A stretch of DNA of 64,000 nucleotides from the NCBI GenBank assembly GCA_958510825.1, contig OY294051.1, positions 2,232,001 through 2,296,000 on the forward strand, given 5' to 3'. Position numbers and translations under genes: made by a program. The notes below the pieces were generated by a model that did no database searches, was not told the DNA's origin, and worked only from the letters and a program-made list of their open reading frames with translations. Source of the DNA: Brachypterus glaber (taxonomy: Eukaryota; Arthropoda; Insecta; Coleoptera; Kateretidae). How positions within the stretch are numbered: the stretch's first letter is position 1; each line of letters opens with the position of its first letter. Positions 9,691 to 62,890 of the stretch are shown one piece after another.

Positions 9691-9831
9691 TTTCTTACGC
9701 AGGCTAGATGCTAATTAGTACCACGGGGTCAGACTGAATGAATTTTGATTCACTTTACCCCCACTTATTCACTTAACCCCGGTTGACGGATCTTTTTAAA
9801 AGCATACAAATACTATAAATAATTTTTTTTA
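9691..9831. other. Short unannotated stretch
   Basis: Nothing recognised. Confidence 0.4.
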
Positions 9832-10520
9832 CGAGTGCTTTAGAATGTAAGCAAATACACACACTTTTCAAACACAGAATGAATCCATTCTAGCTCTAGT
9901 ACGGTATGAATATTCTTTATCAAGTGTTAGAATGAGCACATGTAGTGCCATCTCTTTATAAAAGTAAAGAAAACTGTAGCAAAATAAGCAAAAATATATA
10001 TATTTTACCATGAAATATTGAATAATTTAATGCAGTTTAAAGTTTTGCGTTAAAATTACATAAAGTTTATTAGTTTTTCTTAATATTTGACCAGTTTTTT
10101 AATCAATTTAGTTCAAAAAATTAAAACTGCTCCGTTTAATGTTAAATGTCACAACAATCTGACATAACCTTCAATTTTTGCATTATAATTTGTAAATATA
10201 TGCTAAAATTAAATAAAAATCTTTTTTAAGTAATGACTAATTAATTAATTATTAAATAACATTAATCGCGTTATTTAAAAATATGTGTTTTGTTGCATTT
10301 ACAATGTGGAGTCACAAAAAACATCGTTTTTAACCTTGTTCGCAGTTTAAAGCCAAGTGTTTCATATTTGCAGTCGAAGAAAAAGTATAATCTACAACAC
10401 GTATGGAATAGTCATTCCGCGCTCGCGGGAGCGTCATACTCTCCTGCCGGCTCGTATGACAAACTTTCCGCTCGCGGGGAATATTGCCTATTCCATACTA
10501 GTTATAAAATATACTATTCT
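9832..10520 (-). mobile_element. Hairpin-ended ~690-bp repeat (family H1), copy a
   Basis: On the minus strand it starts with an imperfect hairpin of about 110 bp: TATGGAATAG and AGCGG on the left pair with CCGCGAGCGCGGAATGA and CTATTCCATAC on the right. About 500 bp of AT-rich DNA follows, and it ends in CTTACATTCTAAAGCA. Five copies occur in this window in both orientations. There is no coding capacity, and the frames at 10290-10598 are readings through the hairpin. The superfamily is unknown to me. Confidence 0.8.
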
Positions 10521-10758
10521 GTGTGTATTTTTGCAGGAATTAAAATCTATCAACAAAGTTGTCTTAAAGTGACCAAAACTGGACAGATTCAGAATTAACA
10601 ACTTTGAGAATCCAATTTAAGGGATTAGATGTTGGCCTAAAGGGTGCAATGTATAATAAGGGTTAATAGAAATGGGTTTTGGAAAGTAAATACTTGTTGA
10701 ATAGTTCCTTAAATTAACATTTCTCAGATTACGACAGTTTAATTACGAAATATTAAGT

Positions 10759-11265
10759 CTAAAGATCACTTTACACGGAGCAATTTGTACGCAAGTTTGA
10801 TGCTATGCAAGTTTGCTGCCAGATATAGCATGAGGACAATTGGACATTGATTTGCCTTTTCACGGAGCAAGTTGTACGCAAGTTTGGTGCTATATATTGC
10901 AAGGTAAACGGTGCTGCCAACCAGACAATTTTGACGTGTCTCTGAGTTTGTTGACAAAAACATAACTAGCATTTGCTTTTTTAAGGAAGTTTTTTAATTA
11001 GACAGATCGATCTATTATTAATAATAATAATTATTAACATGTGCAGTTGCTACTATATTAGTAAAATTAAATCGATTTGGTAACTTTTTTCCAGGTTGGA
11101 AATAACCATAAAACTTGCGTGAAAATCGCCGAAAAATAGAACATGTTCTAAATAATTTGATGGCACGAAAATGGCCTCAAACTTGCCTGAAGGCAATCAT
11201 TCTTGCAACAAACTTGCATAGCATCAAACTTGCGCACAAATTGCTCCGTATAAAGTGGCTTTTAG
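10759..11265. mobile_element. ~500-bp inverted-repeat element (CACTTTACACGGAGCAA type)
   Basis: The left end CTAAAGATCACTTTACACGG is followed by AGCAATTTGTACGCAAG. The right end mirrors this as ACTTTATACGGAGCAATTTG on the minus strand, giving inverted repeats of about 55 bp. A second copy of the left motif (CACGGAGCAAGTTGTACGCA) begins near 10860, so the left end is partly duplicated. No exact target duplication was found. The frames inside (10766-10972, 11115-11372) run through the inverted repeats and are not supported as genes. Confidence 0.75.
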
Positions 11266-11365
11266 GATTGGACATCCAAAACTCACTTATCTGGAACCCA
11301 ATCACAAGCTTTAAACCAGCCGTCTCAAATGAGCGAGAATGCTTTCTCATAAAAAACTTATGTCC

Positions 11366-11960
11366 AGAATAGTATATTCTATAACTAGTATGGAATAGAC
11401 AATATTCCGCGCGAGCGGTAAGTTTGTCATACGAGCCGGCACGCTAGTATGACGGTCCCGCGAGCGCGGAATGAATATTCCATGCGTGTCGTAGACTATA
11501 CTTTTTCTACGACTGCAAATATGAAACAATGTATGGCTTTAAACTGCGGACAAGGGTAAAAACAATGTTTTTTGTGACTCGACATTGTAAATGCAACAAA
11601 AAACATATTTTTAAATAAAGCAATTAATGTTATTTAATAATATTATCAAATCAGTACTTAAAAAGGACTTTTATTTAATTTTAGCGCATTTTTACAAATT
11701 ATAATGTAAAAATTGAAGGTTATGTCAGATTGTTGTGTTTTAATTTTTTGAACTAAATTGATAAAAAACTGGTCAAATATTAAGAAAAACTAATAAACTT
11801 TATGTAATTTTAACGCATAACTTTAAATTGCATTAAATTATTCTATATTTCATGGTAAAATATATATATTTTTGCTAATTTTGCTACGGGTTTCCTTACT
11901 TTTATAAACAAGAGATGGCACTACATGTGCTCATTCTAACACTTGATACGGAATATTCAT
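11366..11960 (+). mobile_element. Hairpin-ended repeat H1, copy b, 3'-truncated
   Basis: Begins with the GC-rich hairpin (TATGGAATAGACAATATTCC to ATTCCATGCG) and continues colinearly with the other copies up to the GATACGGAATATTCATA block. The last ~100 bp present in copies c and d are missing. It lies in inverse orientation to copy a. Confidence 0.8.
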
Positions 11961-12320
11961 AAAAAACTTCATAACAAAATATGTTGTGTAATTTTATTTT
12001 AATTCCTTAAATGCTGGAATATTTGTGTGTCTGAAATAAGTTTCTCCCTTCCTTTGGTTTTAAACACATTAAAAAGATCCAAGACCTTTGATCCTAAAAA
12101 ATATGACTTTAAAGCCGAAAAACTCCCCTAATACAAACATATTCACATATTTACACAAGAAATCCATATAAGTTAATTATAAGGGTCGAATATTATTTGA
12201 AAATTGTTTACCTTAGTCCTAAACCAATAAAGTACTAACAACTGGTAAAACAGGTCCAAAATTTTCGGATTATATAATAAAAAGTTGCGGAATATATTAT
12301 AAAAAGTCCGCATGAGACCG
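11961..12320. repeat. Left member of a diverged direct duplication
   Basis: The segment at about 12101-12236, with AAAGCCGAAAAACTCCCCTA and CCTTAGTCCTAAACCAATAA, recurs as about 12899-13033. The hairpin-family copy c lies between the two. A shorter third echo lies near 14620-14670. Confidence 0.65.
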
Positions 12321-12870
12321 AGAATAGTATATTCTAACTAGTATGGAATAGACAATATTCCGCGTGAGCGGAAATTTTGTCATACTAGCCAGCAGGCGAG
12401 TATGACAGTCCCGCGAGCGCGGAATGACTATTCCATACGTGTTGTAGACTATACTTTTTCTTCGACTGCAAATATGAAACACTGTATGGCTTTAAACTGC
12501 GGACAAGGTTAAAAACAATATTTTTTGTGACTCGATATTGTAAATGCAACAAAACACATATTTTTAAATAAAGCTATTAATGATATTTAATAATTTTATC
12601 AAATCAGTACTTAAAAAAGATTTTTATTTAATTTTAGCACATATTTACAAATTATAATACAAAAATTGAAGGTTTTGTCAGATTGTTGTGACAGATATCA
12701 GGTTTAAATATTTAACAATAGATGGAGCAGTTTTAATTTTTTGAACTAAATTGATAAAGATCTAACACTTGATACGGAATATTCATACCGTATCTAGAGC
12801 TAGAATGGATTCATTCTGTGTTTGAAAAGTGTGTGTATTTGCTTACATTCTAAAGCAGTCGTAGAAAAAA
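12321..12870 (+). mobile_element. Hairpin-ended repeat H1, copy c, internally deleted
   Basis: Has the GC-rich hairpin and the terminal CTTACATTCTAAAGCAGTCG. Between TTGATAAA and TCTAACACTTGATACGG it lacks about 200 bp that copies a, d and e keep. Confidence 0.8.
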
Positions 12871-13270
12871 TGACTACCATAGTAATTTTCTTACCAAAAT
12901 ATGACTTTGAAGTCGGAAAATCCCCCTACTTCAAATACATTTACATATTTATTTAAGAAATCAATATGAATTAATGTAAGCGGTCGAATATTATATGAAA
13001 ATTGTTTGCCTTAGTCCTAAACTAATAAAGTAGCATTAGAGTAATCAAATTTGAATTTGAATGCGAACAAACAAGCCTCCACAAAATAATTCTGAGAAAG
13101 TTTCTGATATTTTACGAGAGTTTATAAACTTTGTTGTTTGAAAAAACTGCCTTTAAACTTTTACCTTTTTTTATATTAAAAACTCCTCAGCAAACTTAAA
13201 TAAAATATTTTTGAATTTAAACAGAGTACGGCAATGCCAAAGTCACGTGGTTAGCTTGTTCGCGTGTGTT
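12871..13270. repeat. Right member of the direct duplication, then AT-rich DNA
   Basis: 12899-13033 matches 12101-12236. Nothing is recognised between 13040 and 13270. Confidence 0.6.
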
Positions 13271-13850
13271 TATACAGGGTGTTTTAAAAATGCGGGTACT
13301 TTAAAAAGGTGATTTTAAGCCAAAAAAATATGAAAAAATGTCCCTTTAAAGATTGGTCTAAAAATGAAATCCGTCTAAAATAGTCCTGACTTTTATTAAA
13401 TATCTCTGGAACCCTATGAAGTATAGCAACGACATTTTGCACATGCCTTAACATACTATGAATTTTTATTTGGTAACTTTATCAGGGCCGTGCAAAATAA
13501 AGGGGGGCATTTTATCAATAAAATGGATTCCTAATTTAAAAATGCATTAAAAAAGTAGTTTATAAACATAAATTTAACAATAAAGGGCCAACCATTTTCG
13601 AGAAAATGCCACGTAAAGAAATAATTTTACGTTTTGAGCAGCAAAAAAATTGCCAATAAAAATGTTGTAGGGGAATTCTACATCAAAATCTCAAAAAAGT
13701 ACCTATAAACTTAGGTCCTAAGTTCAGGTACTACGGTATCTTAGAAATAATACCTTTAGGGAAAGGGTTTAAAACCGACATGTGGACATTTGTAAATGGG
13801 AACTTTGTATAATTTTTTATATAGAATAGGCTTAAATTTTACAGAATATA
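13271..13850 (+). mobile_element. Half of a CAGGGTG-ended foldback element
   Basis: It starts TATACAGGGTGTTTTAAAAA. It then follows the same order of landmarks as one arm of the 1130-2264 element: a TCTCTGGAACCCTATGAAGT block, a TTGCACATG block, a G-run beside GTGCAAAAT, an ACCATTTTCGAGAAAATG block, and a GAATTCTACATCAAAATCTC block. The opposite arm is absent. The last bases of the window (63968-64000) match its TCTCTGGAACCCTATGAA block. Confidence 0.7.
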
Positions 13851-14540
13851 TTTTTTCTACGACTGCTTTAGAATGTAAGCAAATACACACACTTTCTAAA
13901 CATAGAATGAATCCATTCTAGCTCTAGATACGGTATGAATATTCCGTATCAAATGTTAGAATGAGCACATGTAGTGCTATCTCTTGTTTATAAAAGTAAA
14001 GAAAACTGTAGCAAAATTAGCAAAAATATATATATTTTACCATGAAATATTGAATAATTTAATGCAATATAAAGTTTTGCGTTAAAATTACATAAAGTTA
14101 ATTAGTTTTTCTTAATATTTGACCAGTTTTTTATCAATTTAGTTCAAAAAATTAAAACTGCTCCATCTATTGTTAAATATTTAAACCTGATATCTGTCAC
14201 AACAATCTGACATAACCTTTAATTTTTGCATTATAATTTGTAAATATGTGCTAAAATTAAATAAAAATCTTTTTTAAGTACTGATTTGATAAAATTATTA
14301 AATAACATTAATTGCTTTATTTAAAATCATGTGTTTTGTTGCATTTACAATGTCAAATCACAAAAAACATTGTTTTTAACCTTGTCCGCAATTTAAAGCC
14401 ATACAGTGTTTCATATTTGCAGTTGAAGAAAACGTATAGTCTACAACACTTATGGAATAGTCATTCCGCGCTCGCGGGACCGTCATACTCGCCTGCCGGA
14501 TTGTATGACAATATTGTCTATTCCATGAATATACTATTTT
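13851..14540 (-). mobile_element. Hairpin-ended repeat H1, copy d
   Basis: Minus-strand copy with both ends: CTTACATTCTAAAGCAGTCG at the left edge of the window-strand view and the GC-rich hairpin at the right. The hairpin has lost part of one arm (…GTATGACAATATTGTCTATTCC). The 118-aa frame at 14312-14668 reads through it and is not a gene. Confidence 0.8.
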
Positions 14541-20780: not shown

Positions 20781-21113
20781 GATAATAGTTATTTATGGTA
20801 CTAGTGGGTAAAGTAAGATATTGCCCATGAGAAAATTAACCTTCGAGGCGTCAGCCAAGCAGGTTCATTTTCGAGAGGGCAATATCGGATTACCATAAGT
20901 GCCATACAAGGTTTTATCCAATAAATAGCTTAGAAATTCATATTTTTATTAAAAATTTTAATGACATTTACAAGATAATAATTTGACAAGTGACAGTTAA
21001 ATGGGTAAAATAAATAATTATCAACTAAATAAAGTAAAAGCCACGCGGGGGTTATTATTGAGTTTATCTATTTAAAATAAAGCTGGTAGTTGTATCATTA
21101 TCTGTATGTATTG
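20781..21113 (+). mobile_element. Hairpin-ended ~335-bp repeat (family H3), tandem unit 1
   Basis: Starts GATAATAGTTATTTATGGTA. The first ~115 bp fold as an imperfect hairpin: TATTGCCCATGAGAAAATTA pairs with TTTCGAGAGGGCAATATC around a GAGGCGTCAGCC loop. About 220 bp of AT-rich sequence follows, to TATCTGTATGTATTGGATA. Confidence 0.8.
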
Positions 21114-21450
21114 GATAATAGTTATTTATGGTACTAGTGGGTAAAGTAAGATATTGCCAATGAGAAAATTACTCTGCGAGGCGTCAGCCAAGCAGGTTAA
21201 TTTTCGAGAGGGCAATATCGGTTTACCCATGAGTGCCATACAAGGTTTTATCCAATAAATAGCTTAGGAATTCATATTTTTATTAAAAATTTTAATGACA
21301 TTTACAAGAAAATAATTTGACAAGTGACAGTTGAGTGGGTAAAATAAATAATTATCAACTCAATAAAGTAAAAGCCACGTGGGATTATTATTAAGTTTAT
21401 CTATTTAAAATAAACCTGGTAATTGTCCTATTATCTGTATGTATTGGATA
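21114..21450 (+). mobile_element. Hairpin-ended repeat H3, tandem unit 2
   Basis: Follows unit 1 without spacer at a 333-bp period, with a few substitutions. A third copy is at 37690-38026 and a 50-bp fragment at 46501-46550. Confidence 0.8.
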
Positions 21451-23520
21451 AAACAGTTTATTTGTGAGTACAAAATATTTGTTTCGATATGGCAAATTAT
21501 ATTATTTGGTTGTGAGTAATAAATGTTATTTTTGTCAAATAAACCTAATGTCTAAATAATCTTATCAGTGTAAGGCTGTAGCTACTATCAGTGATATTTT
21601 ATCTGCATTAAAAAAATAGTTTTCCTTTATAATAAGGAAGTGTTCCTTATTTAAATACTTACATAATAGCTTCTAATTTTTTTTCAAAAATAGACAAATG
21701 AGTGAAAATAATTAATATTAAAATTCGATGAAACCAATTAAAATTAAAATTCGGTAAACAAAAATAATTATTACCTTATTAATAATAATAAGTTATTACT
21801 TTATACTTAATTAGGTACAATTAGTAGAAAATTCGAAGAAAATTATACTGTACTATCGATCGCTAAGGTCTAATAGGCGGGGATGACACAATGTGGATGG
21901 GTGGCTCGAGTTGGAAAAACCTTCTTTTATTTTTTGCTTGGTAAATTTATTAGTTAGGAAAATTGGAGCAGTACAGTGTGAATTTCTTAGAGGCCAGAAC
22001 CTTTTATCTTAGTCATCAAAATTTTTCTGCTGCTGCCGCTTCCTACGTCACGATTCTCGCTTCAAAACGCAGGCAATTCAGCTGACCCGTTTGTCCGGCT
22101 GGCTAGCAGAGAACCTGACTCTCTGCTGCATTTACAAATTTGGTTTAATGTATTTTAAATACTTAGCACATAGCAACTACATATCACATGTAACTACATG
22201 AACATGTAGTACATATCATGTACATGCTTATCGTTGGGTATACTTATGTACATAAAAATTTTAGCCCCAAATGCCTACTTTCAATATTTTGGTAAAAAAA
22301 TTATTAGAATCAGCTGATTGTCGCCATCTTTATTTATCATCCTTCCTCAAAAAACTATTAGTAGTAACAATAACGTTGTTGTATTATTAAATCATTAAAT
22401 ATGAATCTACAATTTTAATAGTGTATTTAATATAACATTATGTTTTAGAATAATAGTAAAAATGGTATTATATACCTCAAACTTGTTACAACAACGTTTG
22501 GTTGTACTATTTTTAGATTTTTATATCAGTGTTTAAATAAAAAAAAAATTTTAAGAACATTTATTTTAATTTCTTTGATATACTATATTGACGAGATTTT
22601 TGCTTAGAATAATCCTAATTATATTCAAGACACTAAAAAATTAATTAATGAATCTCTAATGCAATGACATGTTTGTTGCATATTCTTAGAATTCTGTATC
22701 TGTTTGGCAGCTTATAAATTTGTTTTTTGTTAAGTTTATTTTAATATATTTAAATCTTAACATCGGTGTAGCCAGGGGGCATAAGGGGCCCCGCTTCTTT
22801 GCTCAAAAAATTATCTATATTTTATTTAAAAAATGAGACTAAAAAGAAAACAATTATTTTCTTTTAAGTAATACAGGGACGTAACCAGAAAAAATCCAAG
22901 GGTGCTCAACCCCCAGGGTGTAATACAATACTTGTATATGTTAATATTTTATAGATTTTAGTCGTACCCATAGGCGCCGACTTTTCAAAATCCCAGTGGG
23001 GGCCAAATTATTTTGAAATATAAAAATATATAACAGATATGTGGGGGTTTTTGTATATGACAGGGAACGACCCACGAAATCAGTCTGGGAGGGGGAAAAT
23101 TTCAAAAAAATACTCATTCACGGCAAATTTAAATGTTGAAAGCAAAAATATCCCAGGTCGATGCCTATGGTCATACGTCAGTAATCTCAAAATTATTCGA
23201 GGTTAGCAGTATTTTGGATGTTATTATTTTTAGGTTCTTGGTTCAGAATAAAAACCGAAAATTTTAAAATTGACCCTTAGATATATTTTGGTCACGCTAC
23301 TGAAATTATTAATAAAATTAATAGGCGTTTAAATATATTTTAATTTAGTAGGAGCAAAACAAGTGTCGACTCTAAAAATAAAGTACTCAAAATCGAGATA
23401 AAAAAGCTTACGTATGTACCTGCGTACTTAAAAATGAATGAAAATCAGTGTCAGTGAAATGCTATAAATAAAGTGGACGAAATATAAAAAAACAAATATT
23501 TAAAAGAAAAGTATATAGAG
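21451..23520. other. 2-kb AT-rich stretch without a recognised gene
   Basis: A small palindromic cluster around ACATGTAGTACATATCATGT (22190-22230) is present. Otherwise I see no repeat family, gene or structured RNA. Confidence 0.4.
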
Positions 23521-36954: not shown

Positions 36955-37689
36955 ATAATTATCAGTTAATAAGTACCTACATTTTTCCTATGACCTAGTT
37001 AGTAGTTAGTGCTTATTTTCCACCCGTTGCCATGACAGCGGTCGAAAAGTGACTGTCAGCTGATTTTACATATCTGCTGTCAGAAAATAAGTGAACGTCA
37101 AACGCAAAACGTCAAATTAATAAAATTAATTTTAAGACAAGGTGTTAGATCGTATGAAAGATAGTATACGCACCTCGACGCAAACCTATTTCAATGCACA
37201 CTCTCGTGCAATAGAAACTAGGTTCACTTACTCGGTGCGTAATATACTATTTCACAACTATACCTAGTACTAATAGGTCCCAATAAGCTCGTATTTTTCT
37301 TACAAATTATATATCTATTAAAAATTAAAAACAAGTTTCTTTGCTGGCGTGAGTACCTACTTATACACATATGGACGTGAAAACAAAATTCTGCTTATTA
37401 AAAGATCTAAAAGGAAGTCTCCCTAGGTTATATTTTAACACAAATTAACATTAATATCACAATTATAGAATTTCCTTTAGTTAATTTTTTTTTATAGCTT
37501 TTAAAATCCTTAAATATCTTTTCTGTTTTTCTAAATGAAATAGTTTTTTTTTCTGCGAACATGGTTTTAAATTTCTTTTACTGTATTCCTTTTTGTTTTG
37601 TAAATAAGCGATTACTCACAGCGTGCGTTATATTGACCAAAGCCACCGTTAGGGAATTTTGTTGATTCTAGAAATTTATGTTAGCATTT
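36955..37689. other. Unannotated stretch
   Basis: Nothing recognised. Confidence 0.4.
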
Positions 37690-38026
37690 AATAGTTATTT
37701 ATGGTACTAGTGGGTAAAGTAAGATATTGCCCATGAGAAAATTAACCTGCGAGGCGTCAGCCAAGCAGGTTAATTTTCGAGAGGGCAATATCGATTTACC
37801 CATGAGTGCCATGCAAGGTTTTATCCAATAAATAGCTTAGGAATTCATATTTTTATTAAAAATTTTAATGACACTTACAAGAAAATAATTTGACAAGTGA
37901 CAGTTGAGTGGGTAAAATAAATAATTATCCACTCAATAAAGTAAAAGCCACGCGGGGGTTATTATTGAGTTTATCTATTTAAAATAAAGCTGGTAATTGT
38001 CTTATTATCTGTATGTATTGGATAAA
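37690..38026 (+). mobile_element. Hairpin-ended repeat H3, copy 3
   Basis: Matches the tandem pair at 20781-21450 from AATAGTTATTTATGGTACTA to TGTATGTATTGGATAAAA. It has the best-preserved hairpin: AACCTGC/GCAGGTT around GAGGCGTCAGCCAA. Confidence 0.82.
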
Positions 38027-38804
38027 ATACTTTTTTTTTTAATATATACTGTATATGAATATTTTAGTGCTTGAAGCTAACTTTATACTTTTCGTTGGAT
38101 GTCATTTTATTTAACAGTTCTAAAAACAGTTTGTTTTCGTTGTAAAAAAATCACCTCGCAAGCACTAGAAGATTATAATACGTAAGCATAATAACTCAAG
38201 AACAAATTATCATCGACTCAAATCAGAAAGAATCTTATTCTATGAGAGAAAGAACCCTTTTATTTTTAAAATTATCCCCCCAAAAACAAAAAAGTTATTG
38301 GGGGTTAAACTTAAGAAAAAAGAATATTTTTGTACTTGGCGAATGGTGTGGGACCGGCTTATGTGGTTCTCTTCATTCTCATTCAATAAACTCTTTTACC
38401 CCATTTTAATAAATTTAAATCATGTAGAAAATAAACACACAATCTGTTCTTGGTTCGTAAAAAAATTTATAATTCACGAATGGTGTGCAAAAAGTTTTAT
38501 ATAGGCAGGCTTTGGCACAGTATCCGTAAAAAAGCCTAAAGGAAAATAAAGAGTTTTCTTGTATGCTTATAATAGCAAACGGAACGCCTGTTTTTGCCAA
38601 GATACACATCGCAAGAATTTAACGCTAAAAATAAACGATTTTACTGTTTTAAACATTAATTTAAAACGATTTTACATAAATCAAAATTGGTAAACATTTA
38701 CATATATTAACGCCATCTGGCAGGTAACTGGATCTAATTTTTAATTGATTTTTTGTTTACAATATTTTGTCTATTTTTGTTTAGATTTAATAACTTAAAA
38801 AAGG
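38027..38804. other. AT-rich stretch without a recognised gene
   Basis: Overlapping frames at 38298-38609 on both strands show no domain. Confidence 0.4.
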
Positions 38805-41753: not shown

Positions 41754-41969
41754 TGAAAATCATTTTACTTTTTCTAGCTTTTACCTACCTTCCTTTATTT
41801 TTTTTTTGTTTTAGGGCTTAAAAGCCGTGTTGTCCGTTCGTCCGTCTGTCAGATTGTTTCCTTTTAGGTTTATGGGAGGCATAGCGTAGTGGCTAGCGCG
41901 TATGTATAGCAAGTCTACTAGCGTGAGTTCGATTCTCACTGGCGCCGATTTGCCTTTTTCAGTTAATTA
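41754..41969 (+). mobile_element. SINE plus 5' flank, module A of a triplication
   Basis: About 119 bp of flank (TGAAAATCATTTTACTTTTT … GTCCGTCTGTCAGATTG) precede a tRNA-like head with A box TAGCGTAGTGGC (41882-41893) and B box GAGTTCGATTCTC (41925-41937). The module is cut at CAGTTAATTA. The A and B boxes are the internal RNA polymerase III promoter expected of a tRNA-derived SINE. Confidence 0.85.
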
Positions 41970-42203
41970 TTTCAATTATTAATTAACTGAAAAAGGCAAA
42001 TCGGCGCCAGTGAGAATCGAACTCACGCTAGTAGACTTGCTATACATACGCGCTAGCCACTACGCTATGCCTCCCATAAACCTAAAAGGAAACAATCTGA
42101 CAGACGGACGAACGGACAACACGGCTTTTAAGCCCTAAAACAAAAAAAAAATAAAGGAAGGTAGGTAAAAGCTAGAAAAAGTAAAATGATTTTCAACACT
42201 ATG
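41969..42203 (-). mobile_element. SINE plus 5' flank, inverted module B
   Basis: A near-exact reverse complement of modules A and C, with B box at 42012-42024 and A box at 42056-42067. It starts abruptly after module A, with about 1 bp of microhomology. At its far end it is separated by 16 bp from module C. Confidence 0.85.
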
Positions 42204-42219
42204 ACTTTTAAGTCCAAAC

Positions 42220-42620
42220 CATAGTGTTGAAAATCATTTTACTTTTTCTAGCTTTTACCTACCTTCCTTTATTTTTTTTTTTTCGTTTTAGGGCTTAAAA
42301 GCCGTGTTGTCCGTTCGTCCGTCTGTCAGATTGTTTCCTTTTAGGTTTATGGGAGGCATAGCGTAGTGGCTAGCGCGTATGTATAGCAAGTCTACTAGCG
42401 TGAGTTCGATTCTCACTGGCGCCGATTTGCCTTTTTCAGTTAATTAATAATTGAAATTTGGCGAAGGCGTTAAGTGAAATGGGCACCAATTTCTAGGTTT
42501 GAAAGTCAGTATAAGCCGTTGGTTCCCTCTACTACTAGCCCACACAAGTCCTGAACTTAGAGGGTGCTTAATTAAGTAGAATAGTACGAGGTTAAACAAA
42601 CAAACAAAAAACAAACAATC
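42220..42620 (+). mobile_element. SINE plus 5' flank, module C with complete SINE
   Basis: Begins CATAGTGTTGAAAATCATTT (inverse of the end of B) and carries the same flank and head (A box 42359-42370, B box 42402-42414). It continues through TTGGCGAAGGCG and ACTAGCCCACACAAGTCCTG to an A/C-rich tail of AAAC units at about 42593-42620. This is the only full-length SINE of the three modules. Confidence 0.85.
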
Positions 42621-53664: not shown

Positions 53665-53733
53665 TTTTAATTACATCAATCTAATGGCTATATTCCTTTT
53701 GCGAGTAAAGTCTAAAAACGTTTTCTTAATCAG

Positions 53734-53808
53734 CGTGCAGAGTTGACTCTTGGTACTGAAGAGGGCCAGCAGCCCGAAACTGTCAGTCTACCAATATCAC
53801 TCTGTACG
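53734..53808 (+). ncRNA. Type I hammerhead ribozyme, copy 1
   Basis: Every conserved position is present. Stem I: CGTGCAGAG (53734-53742) pairs with CTCTGTACG (53800-53808), then an internal loop (7 and 5 nt), then TTGGTA (53750-53755) pairs with TACCAA (53789-53794). Core box CTGAAGA, the CUGANGA consensus, is at 53756-53762. Stem II is GGGC/GCCC with loop CAGCA (53763-53775). GAAA is at 53776-53779. Stem III is ACT/AGT closed by a GTC triloop, with its first base being the last A of GAAA. Predicted cleavage follows C53788 in the GTC. The internal loop of stem I and loop II are placed for the tertiary contact that fast natural hammerheads use. The ribozyme lies on the plus strand. Confidence 0.88.
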
Positions 53809-54087
53809 ATGATTAGAAAATAGATTGATGGAATAATAAATTAATATTTTTATAATTTTGTTTAAAATTAAAAATTTCTGTCCTTACTAATTTTACGTCT
53901 AACCACCCGTTAGTGGTACTATGTGCTTGAGACCCACAAGTCTTCAACTTGCTACCATTCAAAGTCTCCAGATAAGGAGAGGTATGAGTAGTTGTCTACA
54001 TCTAGAAATAGATGGCGCACAAGTCTACATCAATCTAATGGCTATATTCCTTTTGCGAGTAAAGTCTAAAAACGTTTTCTTAATCAG

Positions 54088-54162
54088 CGTGCAGAGTTGA
54101 CTCTTGGTACTGAAGAGGGCCAGCAGCCCGAAACTGTCAGTCTACCAATATCACTCTGTACG
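54088..54162 (+). ncRNA. Type I hammerhead ribozyme, copy 2
   Basis: Identical to copy 1 through the core and stems, displaced by exactly 354 nt (core at 54110-54116, predicted cleavage after C54142). The only repeat difference lies just outside, near 54166 (GATAAGAA for GATTAGAA). Cleavage at both copies would release a 354-nt RNA with ends suited to circularisation. Confidence 0.88.
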
Positions 54163-54204
54163 ATGATAAGAAAATAGATTGATGGAATAATAAATTTTAA
54201 TTAC

Positions 54205-55231: not shown

Positions 55232-55319
55232 TAATAATTACTTTTTTTAGATTTTAAGCTTTCACGGCCATTAAGATATAAAGAACTTTCACTTTCGGGT
55301 TTAGACCGTGTTAATGGAT

Positions 55320-55379
55320 TTTCACTTTCCGACGTTTCGTCTCTTAATACTAGAGACATCTTCAGGGATTAATCTGAAA
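55320..55379 (-). ncRNA. Hammerhead-like motif in the Penelope 3' end (minus copy)
   Basis: On the minus strand: TTTCA and TCC (stem I), CTGAAGA, a stem II of GTCTC/GAGAC, then GAAACGTC and GGA and TGAAA closing stem I. One extra U stands between CTGAAGA and stem II. Stem III (AC/GU) has no loop, so it could act only as a dimer or not at all. Penelope-like elements are known to carry minimal hammerheads, which makes homology likely. Activity is doubtful. Confidence 0.5.
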
Positions 55380-55408
55380 CTAAGTTTCGAATCAACTTGT
55401 GTCACTAT

Positions 55409-56223
55409 TTATGACGAGTTGTGGTTATTCACCCGTGACGAGGTTTTTCCTATCAAAGACTTCCATATTGCAGGTAAGTGGTAACCAGTGTCCCGATTGA
55501 TATTGTTAGGATGCTTGATGATTTCTATCGATTCCCGTATCTTCCTTGGCATTTTTCTGTTTTCTGTTAATATTTGTTTTGTTTCAGACAAATTGATTTT
55601 ATGACCTGTTTCATGTACATGTTCGGCTACTGCCGATAAGGAAATTTGTTTCTTTCTTATATTGCGCTCATGCTCTTGAAGTCTTGTAGAAATTTTTCTC
55701 TTAGTTTCACCTATGTAAACCGTACCACAGGAGCAGGGTATTTTATATACGCCTTCTGAACTCAGGGGTATTTTGTCTTTTGTTGAAGTCAAACATTGAC
55801 CTAATTTTTGGTTGGACCGAAATATAGGCTTAATATTTGACTTCTTCAAAAGTTTACCTATTTTATCCGTGATACCGCTTACATAGGGAAGTATAACTTG
55901 TGTCTGTCTGTCATTTTCACTATTGTCCTGTTGTTTGGGTCTGGGATTTCTGTATTTGTATATGGTCTTATTAATGTCTTTTTTGGTATAACCGTTCATG
56001 GTCAAGGCTTTGGTTAGTTTAAGGAGTTCTGTGTCTAGGGAATTCTTGTCTGAAATCATGAAAGCCCTATGAACAAGTGAATTAACTACCGAGCGTTTTT
56101 GAGAGGGATGGTGATGTGAAAATGCGTTTAGGTATCTGTCAGTGTGGGTTTTCTTCCTGTATACCGAGTGTCCTATTGAGCCATTTTCTGTTTTGTAAAC
56201 CAAAACGTCCAAAAAGGGAAGTG
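55409..56223 (-). pseudogene. Penelope-like polyprotein C-terminus: RT end and GIY-YIG nuclease
   Basis: The frame is open for about 271 codons from the inversion point to the stop, with no true start (the first residues read SLPFLDVLVYKTENG). Residues ~1-55 carry the end of the reverse transcriptase in the form usual for Penelope-like elements: VYRKKTHTDRYLNAFSHHHP then SQKRSVVNSLVHRAF. A basic linker follows. From about residue 155 comes the GIY-YIG endonuclease: GVYKIPCSCGTVYIGETKRK, STRLQEHERN, AVAEHVHETGHKI, then RKIRESIEIIKHPNNINRDT with the conserved E and N. The CxC and H-x5-H residues are the zinc-type insertion typical of this nuclease group. The nuclease nicks target DNA for priming. 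Most of the RT domain is absent, so the copy is inactive. The frame is undamaged, which suggests a recent insertion. Confidence 0.9.
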
Positions 56224-56511
56224 AAAATTTCTACAAGACTTCAAGAGCATGAGCGCAATATAAGAAAGAAACAAATTTCCTTATCGGCAGTAGCCGAACA
56301 TGTACATGAAACAGGTCATAAAATCAATTTGTCTGAAACAAAACAAATATTAACAGAAAACAGAAAAATGCCAAGGAAGATACGGGAATCGATAGAAATC
56401 ATCAAGCATCCTAACAATATCAATCGGGACACTGGTTACCACTTACCTGCAATATGGAAGTCTTTGACAGGAAAAACCTCGTCACGGGTGAATAACCACA
56501 ACTCGTCATAA
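56224..56511 (+). pseudogene. Second Penelope-like fragment: GIY-YIG C-terminal half
   Basis: From about 56227 the translation (STRLQEHERNIRKKQISLSA … SSRVNNHNSS) equals the last ~95 residues of the minus-strand copy, with one difference near the end (SLTG for SLIG). It lacks the GIY and YIG motifs. An apparent start at 56116 lies in the antisense of the other copy and is an artefact of the junction. Confidence 0.88.
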
Positions 56512-56540
56512 ATAGTGACACAAGTTGATTCGAAACTTAG

Positions 56541-56600
56541 TTTCAGATTAATCCCTGAAGATGTCTCTAGTAGTAAGAGACGAAACGTCGGAAAGTGAAA
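56541..56600 (+). ncRNA. Hammerhead-like motif in the Penelope 3' end (plus copy)
   Basis: Same arrangement as the minus copy: CTGAAGA at 56555-56561, GTCTC/GAGAC, GAAACGTC at 56582-56589, with stem I formed by TTTCA…TCC and GGA…TGAAA. The stem II loop differs by one base (AGTAGTA versus AGTATTA). Confidence 0.5.
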
Positions 56601-56658
56601 ATCCATTAACACGGTCTAAACCCGAAAGTGAAAGTTCTTTATATAATAATTACTTTTT

Positions 56659-58667: not shown

Positions 58668-59028
58668 TATAAAACACAGCTGGGCACGGTCGAAATTGTA
58701 TATTCCATAACTAGTATGGAATAGACAATATTCCACGCGAGCGGAAATTTGTCATACGAGCCGGCAGAAGATTATGACGGTCCCGCGAGCGCGGAATGAC
58801 TATTCCATACGTGTTGTAGACTATACGTTTTCTTCGACTTCAAATATGAAACATTGTGGCTTTAAACTGCGGACAAGGTTTAAAACAATGTTTTTTGTGA
58901 CTCGACATTGTAAATGCAATAAAACACATATTTGTATATAAAGCAATTAATGTTATTTAATAATTTTATCAAATCAGTACCTAAAAAAGATTTTTATTTA
59001 ATTTTAGCACATATTTACGAATTATAAT

Positions 59029-59830
59029 TGACATGGTCTGTAAAAAGTTAAACAGCGCGTATTTTGGTATTTTGCGTATGAAAGGTGATTTAAACGAACC
59101 AGCAATATTATCTATGTACTATGCTTTAGTTTATTCTCATCTTTCCTATAATATTATCAGTTGGGGTGGTTCCACTGACATTAATAGAATAGTTGTAGCT
59201 CAAAAAAGGATACTAAGGCTAATATTTAATTTGCCTTTTAGACATACCTGTAGAGAAGTTTTTAAAAACAAACGAATTTTAACTGTATTTAGTATTTATA
59301 TTTTTAAATGTGTGTTATATGTAAAAAAGAATTATCTTGATTTTATAAGAAATTCAGATATCCATAACTATAATACTAGAAATAGTAATAACTTACATAT
59401 ACCTCAACACAAGAACGCTTTTTACAAGAAATCTCCTTCATATTCCTGTATACGTTTTTATAATAATCTTCCTAGGGAACTTAAAAGTATTGAAAATTAC
59501 AATTTATTTAAAAAATCAGTGAAAGATTATTTGATAGATAAGGTTTTTTATTCTATTAATGAATATATTACATTTTAATCTATTTGTACTTTACCTATCT
59601 TTGCATATTATTTATGTTACTATTTTTTGTATTTCTTGTAATTTGTTTATAATTTATTTATTTTTTGTTTAGTGTAAAATTAACATATATGTGTATATAT
59701 CTATATTTTTGTGACTTGCCATATATACTCAATGTATCTTTCATGGTTAAATAAATACATTACATTACATTACATTACATTACATTACATTACATTACAT
59801 TACATTACATTACATTACATTACATTACAT
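59029..59830 (+). pseudogene. CR1/Jockey-like LINE fragment: RT C-terminal region
   Basis: An intact frame from about 59033 to the TAA at 59576-59578 gives the last ~180 residues of a LINE reverse-transcriptase protein: YYALVYSHLSYNIISWGGS, then AQKRILRLIFNLPFRHTCRE, ILTVFSIYIFK, HNYNTRNSNNLHIP, FYNNLPRELKS and a C-terminus FYSINEYITF. This layout is that of CR1/Jockey-type LINEs without RNase H. The start Met is only the first after the truncation. A 3' UTR follows and then a (TTACA)n tail at about 59757-59831. The target repeat shows only TAAT duplicated (59025-59028, 59831-59834). The RT catalytic part is absent, so the copy is dead. Confidence 0.85.
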
Positions 59831-59831
59831 T
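59757..59831 (+). repeat. (TTACA)n microsatellite, LINE 3' tail
   Basis: About 15 uninterrupted units of TTACA directly after the ATTAAATAAATACA end of the LINE. It replaces a poly(A) tail and is not a telomeric array. Confidence 0.85.
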
Positions 59832-60210
59832 AATGCAAAAATTAAAGGTTATGTCAGATTGTTGTGACAGATATCAGGTTTAAATATTTCACAATAGATG
59901 GAGCAGTTTTAATTTTTTGTACTAAATTGATAAAAAACTGGTCAAATATTAAGAAAAACTAATAAACTTTATGTAATTTTAACGCAAAACTTTAAATTGC
60001 ATTAAATTATTCAATATTTCGTGGTAAAATATATATATTTTTGCTAATTTTGCTACATATTTCTTTACTTTTATAAAAAATTGTTGGCACTACATGTGCT
60101 CATTTTAACACTTGATAAGGAATATTCATACCCTATCTAAAGCTAGAATGGATTAATTCTGTATTTGAAAAGTGTGTGTATTTGCTTACATTCTAAAAGT
60201 CGTAGAAAAA

Positions 60211-60900
60211 GTAAATTTTGATTTCGTAGGTTTATTACCTTCGGGCCGGATGCCCTCGGCTTCTAAAAACCTACACAATAAAAAAATTTAACTTTTCGCC
60301 TTTGTATTTTAAATAAGTATTTTATTTCAATAAATCATTAAACATTTTTTAATTTATTTTCGATTAACCAAACCTAAACATTGCGGTTGATAAATAATTG
60401 GAACTATCAACTAATTCTGATTGTGGCAATGCACGTATGATATAAATTCTGGCAATTATATAATATTTCCTGGAAAACGTGTCGCTTTTAGCAGAAAAAT
60501 AAATGTATGCAGTAAATGTATGTAAACAGTAATATCCTTGGAGCTCTATTTGATATGTGATATGTTTTGTCAACCAGCAGGATAAATATGTAAATAAAGA
60601 TAGCGTAGTTCTGCTAATAATATTTGACTAGATGAACGATTGCAGGCATGAACTGTATCAGCACAGTCTGTCTGTCCGTCTAATATTACATATGTAAACC
60701 TTATAACTTTGCAGGACCTTTATAGTTTGCGCCACGTAAAATATATAGCTATTAGGGCATTACAAAAAACACTTTTTTTAATATTTACCCCCCCCCATGT
60801 TGTTTCAATTGAAATACTATGCTTGCATACCAAATTTCAGGTTACTTGAACATTTTTTTAACCCCCGCCCAACTCCGTCTATGGATGTAGTTAATGTTAA
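60211..60900. other. AT-rich stretch without a recognised gene
   Basis: A small stem about CCTTCGGGCCGGATGCCCTCGG is at 60238-60260. Nothing else was recognised. Confidence 0.4.
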
Positions 60901-62146: not shown

Positions 62147-62890
62147 CGAGGGGCTGACCGCGTCTGAAATTTGTACAAAAGAGTTTCTTTTTGCAAAGAG
62201 TTCCTCAGAGTTCCTTCGGAGTTCCTCGGGAGTTCCTCGGAGTTCCTCCGAGTTCCTCAGAGTTCTTCGGAGTTCCTCCGAGTTCTTCGGAGTTCCTGCG
62301 AGTTCCTTGGGAGTTCCTCCTGTATTCCTTAAGAGTTCCTCTCTGGAAGTGGTAATTTTTGGCAAATAAGCCTTAGAAATTACCGCTATACAAGCACTAC
62401 TGCCAATAAGGCACCGCACCCTCAAAAAAGAGCTTTGTCCCTGACGGTTTTTACCAAACTTGGCGCCCTTCAAAAAAAAGATGGCGCCCAAAGGTAGGAT
62501 GTTTTGATGAGGTATTTGTAACGGCTCATCTAGTTTGAAAATAAAAACGTTAATCCGCATGGGTAATAAATAATAATTGTTTCGGACCGTGTCTGAAATT
62601 TGTACAAAAGAGTTCCTTTTAGCAAAGAGTTCCTCAGAGTTCCTCTGAGTTCCTTCGGAGTTCTTCCAGAGTTCTTCAGAGTTCCTCGGAGTTCCTCGGA
62701 GTTCCTCGGAGTTCCTCCAGAGTTCCTCAGAGTTCCTCTGAGTTCCTTCGGAGTTCTTCCAGAGTTTTTTAGAGTTCCTCAGAGTTCCTCGGAGTTTCTC
62801 GGAGTTCCGCGGAGTTCCTCCAGAGTTCTTCAGAGTTCCTCCTGAGTTCCTTTGGCTTGTACAAAAGATTTCCTCGCGGTCAGCCCCTCG
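62147..62890. mobile_element. 744-bp hAT-like element filled with GAGTTCCTC minisatellite
   Basis: Perfect 16-bp inverted ends CGAGGGGCTGACCGCG are flanked by the exact 8-bp duplication GTCAAAAA (62139-62146, 62891-62898), as in hAT elements. Inside, two arrays of a 9-13-bp unit (GAGTTCCTCGGA and variants) lie at about 62190-62340 and 62600-62860. Both are preceded by the same ~45-bp leader (TCTGAAATTTGTACAAAAGA). They are separated by about 240 bp of unique DNA. The Ser/Phe/Val-rich plus-strand frames and the Glu/Leu/Arg-rich minus-strand frame at 61988-62560 are the arrays translated and run past the element edge, so they are not called as genes. Confidence 0.85.

Follow-up and report, generated by a model that had tools for sequence, protein, structure and literature searches.

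Tandem retrozymes of the beetle Brachypterus glaber share an insertion pattern with a Penelope-like element

Animal retrozymes with type I hammerhead ribozymes are described, in the portions of PMC7229834 and PMC4918200 drawn on here, as repeats of ~170-400 nt that occur as dimers to multimers, are bordered by target-site duplications (TSDs) of >4 bp, and have no long terminal repeats (LTRs), primer-binding site (PBS), or polypurine tract (PPT). Their co-existence and shared hammerheads with Penelope-like elements (PLEs) led to the proposal, in the relevant section of PMC7229834 (2020), that a PLE is a strong candidate for their mover. How PLEs insert is illustrated by two systems, each cited here for the sections that concern insertion. 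For an anole PLE in vitro, both strands are cut and extended, and reverse transcription begins at two adjacent internal starts with the tail between them; the cut lies 26 bp and the start 111-118 bp into the open reading frame (ORF), which places the main start 85-92 nt past the cut (PMC11167929). In rotifer PLEs, the tail is found on one of two inverted pLTRs, and the TSDs are 8-10 bp (PMC3846280).

The window, meaning the whole 64,000-nucleotide stretch of contig OY294051.1 that was analysed, contains one copy of a retrozyme family with a 354-bp unit. Monomer positions number this unit from the first base 3' of the hammerhead cut, and end types A and B are defined further below. The features of the window copy are:

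53665..53674, no strand: left TSD, TTTTAATTAC, with AAC just before it, a feature of many other copies
53675..53840, plus strand: first partial unit, monomer 241-354 followed by 1-52, taken for an LTR in the sequence-only reading (sequence, fold)
53750..53794, plus strand: predicted type I hammerhead core, copy 1, with a predicted cut after C53788 (motif scan, weak Rfam match)
53841..54028, plus strand: part of the unit present only once, monomer 53-240, including start site B at ~53886 (monomer 98), placed from the ends of other copies (sequence)
54029..54194, plus strand: second partial unit, whose end at 54194 (monomer 52) is of end type A and a probable cDNA start
54104..54148, plus strand: predicted type I hammerhead core, copy 2, with a predicted cut after C54142 (motif scan)
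54195..54204, no strand: right TSD, TTTTAATTAC (sequence)

The arrangement first read from these letters is borne out. Positions 53675-53840 and 54029-54194 are direct repeats of 166 bp with a sole mismatch at 53814 (T/A) and 188 bp between them, giving a period of 354 bp, and an exact 10-bp TSD encloses the whole. Without gaps, the repeat extends to 171 bp (53672-53842 and 54026-54196); the additional bases, 3 bp (TAC) on the left and 2 bp (TT) on the right, represent microhomology at the junctions, so the borders of the window copy are ambiguous by that much. In monomer coordinates, the copy runs through 241-354, 1-354, and 1-52 and thus crosses the cut site twice. The 166-bp repeats are therefore the ends of a 1.47-unit tandem, not LTRs. 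The GC content is 36%, within the low-GC range (<45-50%) of metazoan non-LTR retrozymes. The element is non-coding, with no ORF of at least 90 aa (stop to stop) over 53675-54194, and inspection of the window copy by eye found no PBS or PPT.

A type I hammerhead in each repeat, as had been claimed, is confirmed as a prediction by the motif scan, and the tandem 354-bp units that carry the motif uphold the retrozyme-like nature of the element. The scan finds exactly two hammerheads in the 64-kb window, both within the retrozyme and on the plus strand. Their occurrence by chance is ruled out, with 2 found against 0.033 expected per window (first-order Markov null, 60 replicates). Helix III is closed and helix I is open, which is the topology of type I rather than type III. 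Scoring against Rfam, proposed in the sequence-only reading, came out divided: the motif-trimmed stretch gives matches to RAGATH-1-hammerhead in the correct register, and their 17.8 and 17.3 bits are weak, far below the gathering score of 56.3. Rfam reported no hammerhead at the gathering score, and at E <= 10 it found none in a 701-base stretch. For 53734-53808, the fold of lowest energy differs from the catalytic one; helices I and II are present and helix III is absent, whether the RNA is treated as linear or circular. Catalysis by the retrozyme hammerheads is a prediction. Across copies, no sign of purifying selection on the hammerhead was found (28 changes in 7493 positions vs 157 in 35331 elsewhere in the unit); the motif is conserved no better than the rest of the unit and carries a change in 22 of 159 units.

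The further copies anticipated from the single locus were found. A search with the 520-bp element against the whole 648-Mb genome gave 525 candidates, and 38 further loci were retrieved and analysed jointly with the window copy, for 39 scored loci. Full-length matches among these best 39 of the 525 are 98-100% identical, a value that overstates the youth of the family because the scored loci are its best-matching part. The arms of the 39 loci contain 150 units, from <2 to 14 per arm, with the longest at 14.2 units (L025). TSDs of 10-20 bp were resolved in 28 of the 39 loci, against 2 of 150 in a null with mixed flanks, and are 12-15 bp long in 24 of the 28. The window copy carries C at monomer 146, where 38 of 38 other loci carry A. 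Its single-armed form is also uncommon, as 31 of the scored loci are head-to-head arm pairs. These paired arms are the informative feature of the family, one that the earlier reading of a single window missed.

Ends were called without TSDs, as outer ends reading outward in the sense direction (n = 70 in the 39 loci), and nearly all fall at two places. End type A (37 of 70) lies at monomer 48-64 with a peak at 52, ~52 nt after the hammerhead cut, and end type B (31 of 70) lies at monomer 93-103 with a peak at 98, ~98 nt after the cut; the other two are at monomer 30 and 201. The 31 paired loci each consist of two sense arms head to head, and the other 8 loci have one such outer end. Twenty-seven of the pairs join an A end to a B end, four (L015, L031, L032, and L038) have one end outside the bins and are unclear, and no clear A/A or B/B pair occurs. 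If ends were chosen independently and with equal odds, pairing of A with B in 27 of 27 cases would have p = 7.5e-9. Taken from raw blast ends, L035 and L041 look like B/B pairs; in these two, the AT-rich flank aligns with the stretch between A and B, itself AT-rich. Among the 28 TSD-resolved loci, 23 are A/B, one combines an A end with an end scored at 115 (L018; called without its TSD, its ends are at 50 and 99), and four, including the window copy, are single-armed with an A end.

At 20 of the 32 places where two arms meet head to head, their sequences overlap by 1-5 nt. Half of the short B arms (8 of 16) start at monomer 33-44, close to a foot of the hammerhead rod; the start of the window copy lies at the opposite foot. 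A local palindrome blurs some of these positions. Arm starts at the rod feet could reflect a stop of the enzyme or the meeting place of two cDNAs. The target motif is AA(C/G) before the TSD, with C or G in 20 of 28 resolved loci (p = 1.3e-5 vs an assumed base composition).

About 1 kb from the retrozyme lies a shortened PLE with the same kind of head-to-head arms. Its features are:

55232..55246, no strand: left TSD of the PLE, TAATAATTACTTTTT (sequence)
55247..56643, no strand: shortened PLE, two arms head to head (sequence, homologues)
55331..55365, minus strand: hammerhead-like motif of the PLE minus arm, CTGAAGA ... GAAACGTC (motif scan)
56555..56589, plus strand: hammerhead-like motif of the PLE plus arm (motif scan)
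56644..56658, no strand: right TSD of the PLE (sequence)

The minus arm bears a 30-nt tail and finishes 84 nt past its hammerhead-like site (end B); the plus arm is tailless and finishes 54 nt past its own (end A). The plus arm repeats 421 bp head to head at 99.5% identity, and a 15-bp TSD surrounds the element. Motifs of this kind are described in reviews as the minimal hammerheads of PLEs, which makes the two here putative hammerheads; Cervera 2014 and Lunse 2017 are reportedly about such PLE hammerheads. Pfam gave no reverse transcriptase (RT) or GIY-YIG match on the PLE piece itself, and homologues of its minus-arm piece carry RT and GIY-YIG domains (PF00078, PF01541, and PF26215). Among the named matches of the piece are bees, ants, a wasp, and a beetle. 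Searching the genome for the PLE yielded 1132 candidates, and the best 40 of these, which were scored, match at 99-100% identity, so the PLE family looks recent.

Seventeen PLE loci were examined (L030 and L047-L062, with L047 being the window copy). Both arms are present in 13 of them, and no second arm was found in the retrieved stretch of L048, L049, L052, and L054. In 10 of the 13 two-armed copies, the TSD-resolved ends lie 50-55 and 82-87 nt past the element's own hammerhead-like site, with TSDs of 12-16 bp; the second end of L051 and L062 was read by eye from the flank. The exceptions are L053, which is B/A by alignment only and whose AT-rich TSD shifts the ends to 92 and 61, L059, where an arm ends at +9, and L058, with ambiguous ends. 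No B/B pair occurs in this sample, where one would be detectable; the sample is blind to A/A pairs, since all scored matches include the tailed arm. TSD length does not differ between the PLE and the retrozyme. No sequence similarity between the two was seen by eye, and a blast of the retrozyme against the 64-kb window returned AT-rich matches only. At L030 (1853-2080), a 228-bp PLE insertion made of just two short inverted arms, with a 16-bp TSD, sits beside a retrozyme.

The window holds several other repeats. A 333-bp unit occurs in tandem and once more elsewhere (20781-21451, 37689-38037) at 93-95% identity, with an inverted-repeat look inside, and repeats of ~300-670 bp at 88-96% identity occur in both orientations at 9818-14515 and 58691-60217. 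A duplicated 220-bp stretch at 41875-42424 gives three equal-scoring tRNA-like matches, of which one lies on the opposite strand. At 62156-62852, a 10-bp unit (GAGTTCCTCG-like) forms arrays that stay open on the minus strand, in a 324-aa frame.

The layout of the retrozyme, a hammerhead followed after ~52 nt by A and after a further 46 nt by B, is the layout of a PLE, and PLE-type machinery therefore accounts best for how it spread. Insertion of the PLE type, with two internal starts, inverted arms, and one arm tailed, is seen in 27 of the 31 two-armed retrozyme loci, the other 4 being unclear. The retrozyme has no ORF for RT or GIY-YIG, which makes it a PLE-like template rather than a PLE. 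This is very probably a non-autonomous animal (non-LTR) retrozyme family with a 354-bp unit whose copies were inserted by PLE-type machinery.

Transcripts of tandem copies would cut themselves at the hammerheads, and a host RNA ligase would close the 354-nt monomer, by analogy with published retrozymes. A PLE reverse transcriptase with a GIY-YIG endonuclease would nick both strands of an AT-rich target ~12-15 bp apart. Each cut would prime a cDNA within the RNA, at A (~52 nt) on one strand and at B (~98 nt) on the other, as the ends suggest. Each cDNA would span from part of a unit to many units, around the circle or along an uncut multimer, either of which would permit more than one unit per arm. 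The two cDNAs would join head to head, often where a few nt match. The window copy would be the rarer single-arm outcome, with a start at A, 1.47 units of synthesis, and a halt at the foot of the hammerhead rod. The element and its copies, with their ends, A/B pairing, and TSDs, and the matching pattern in the PLE are observed; transcription, cleavage, and circularisation are inferred from relatives, and so far as a PLE protein acts here, its role is likewise deduced.

Within this explanation, and sharing its probability, the chances are about even that the machinery belongs to a PLE family other than the neighbouring one. C or G precedes the TSD in 20 of 28 retrozyme loci vs 2 of 10 for the neighbouring PLE (Fisher p = 0.008), a contrast that rests on 10 PLE sites, all picked through the tailed arm. 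The A-B distance is 46 nt in the retrozyme and about 30-34 nt in the PLE. Since the target motifs differ, the neighbouring family may not be the mover.

It is unlikely that a LINE moves the retrozyme and that the inverted arms are products of LINE twin-priming. Twin priming leaves a single fixed 3' end and a second start that varies, whereas in 27 of the 31 two-armed loci neither outer end varies, one being A and the other B. Nor does end A of the retrozyme carry a poly-A tail past AATAATAAA. A LINE would suit the TSDs of 12-15 bp, and the window contains LINE remnants in the form of an RNase H and an RT piece, the best named match of the latter being Henosepilachna (ladybird) at 51%. Retrozyme repeats of Nematostella with 15-bp TSDs have likewise been compared to LINEs in a passage of PMC4918200.

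A satellite spread by recombination or by re-inserting DNA circles would explain the tandem arrays, which reach 14 units, and is highly improbable: the loci are dispersed and show exact TSDs, inverted arms, and two fixed ends. The least credible reading, and one that is rejected, is a retrozyme of the plant LTR type mobilised by an LTR retrotransposon. It was suggested by the two direct repeats, with non-coding sequence between them and an exact TSD outside; against it, the TSDs are 10-20 bp rather than 4-6 bp, the units number <2 to 14, the arms are inverted, and the hammerhead is of type I.

The sequence-only interpretation is thus partly supported: its repeats, hammerhead motifs, and dispersed copies with TSDs and varying unit number hold, and its reading of the repeats as LTR-like is contradicted by TSD length, unit number, and inverted arms. 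Nor is the layout remarkable for an animal, since type I retrozymes with TSDs have already been published from animals (PMC7229834, in the part that treats them). The retrozyme itself is a published kind of element, and its insertion signature appears to be unreported; no report was found in searches of the open-licence literature. In both the retrozyme and the PLE of one genome, the insertion scars carry the PLE mark, which bears on what moves retrozymes. The pairing of one A with one B bears on PLE integration, shown in vitro for one element in the relevant part of PMC11167929. Use of A and B, one per strand, in two-armed insertions would mean that the PLE integration complex primes at two positions that are not equivalent on its RNA, which may be a circle. 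Animal retrozymes are probably the SINEs of PLEs, keeping the PLE layout and using both starts, one per strand, in two-armed insertions.

Known systems resemble the retrozyme to different degrees, as compared here through the sections of each source that describe them. The pDo500 satellite of Dolichopoda cave crickets is also an insect tandem repeat with a self-cleaving hammerhead, whereas cleavage here is predicted; its unit is ~500 bp, and the sections describe no TSD or inverted-arm analysis (PMC2837043). One exact-pattern scan of IMG/VR found no retrozyme relatives. Plant LTR retrozymes are likewise non-autonomous and carry hammerheads in direct repeats, but differ in their type III hammerhead, LTRs of 300-400 bp, PBS and PPT, and 4-bp TSDs (PMC4918200). 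RNA circles have been shown for them (PMC4918200), whereas in the present retrozyme they are presumed. Metazoan non-LTR retrozymes share the type I hammerhead, a length of 170-400 nt, low GC, non-coding sequence, tandem arrangement, TSDs of >4 bp, and PLEs in the same genome; in the sections on them, no head-to-head arms, fixed end pair, or pairing are described (PMC7229834). PLEs encode RT and endonuclease and have minimal hammerheads in the accounts used here, whereas the retrozyme lacks coding sequence and has a fuller type I motif. What the retrozyme shares with them is the manner of insertion: two internal reverse-transcription starts, inverted arms, a tail on a single arm, AT-rich targets, and a hammerhead upstream of the starts (PMC11167929, PMC3846280).
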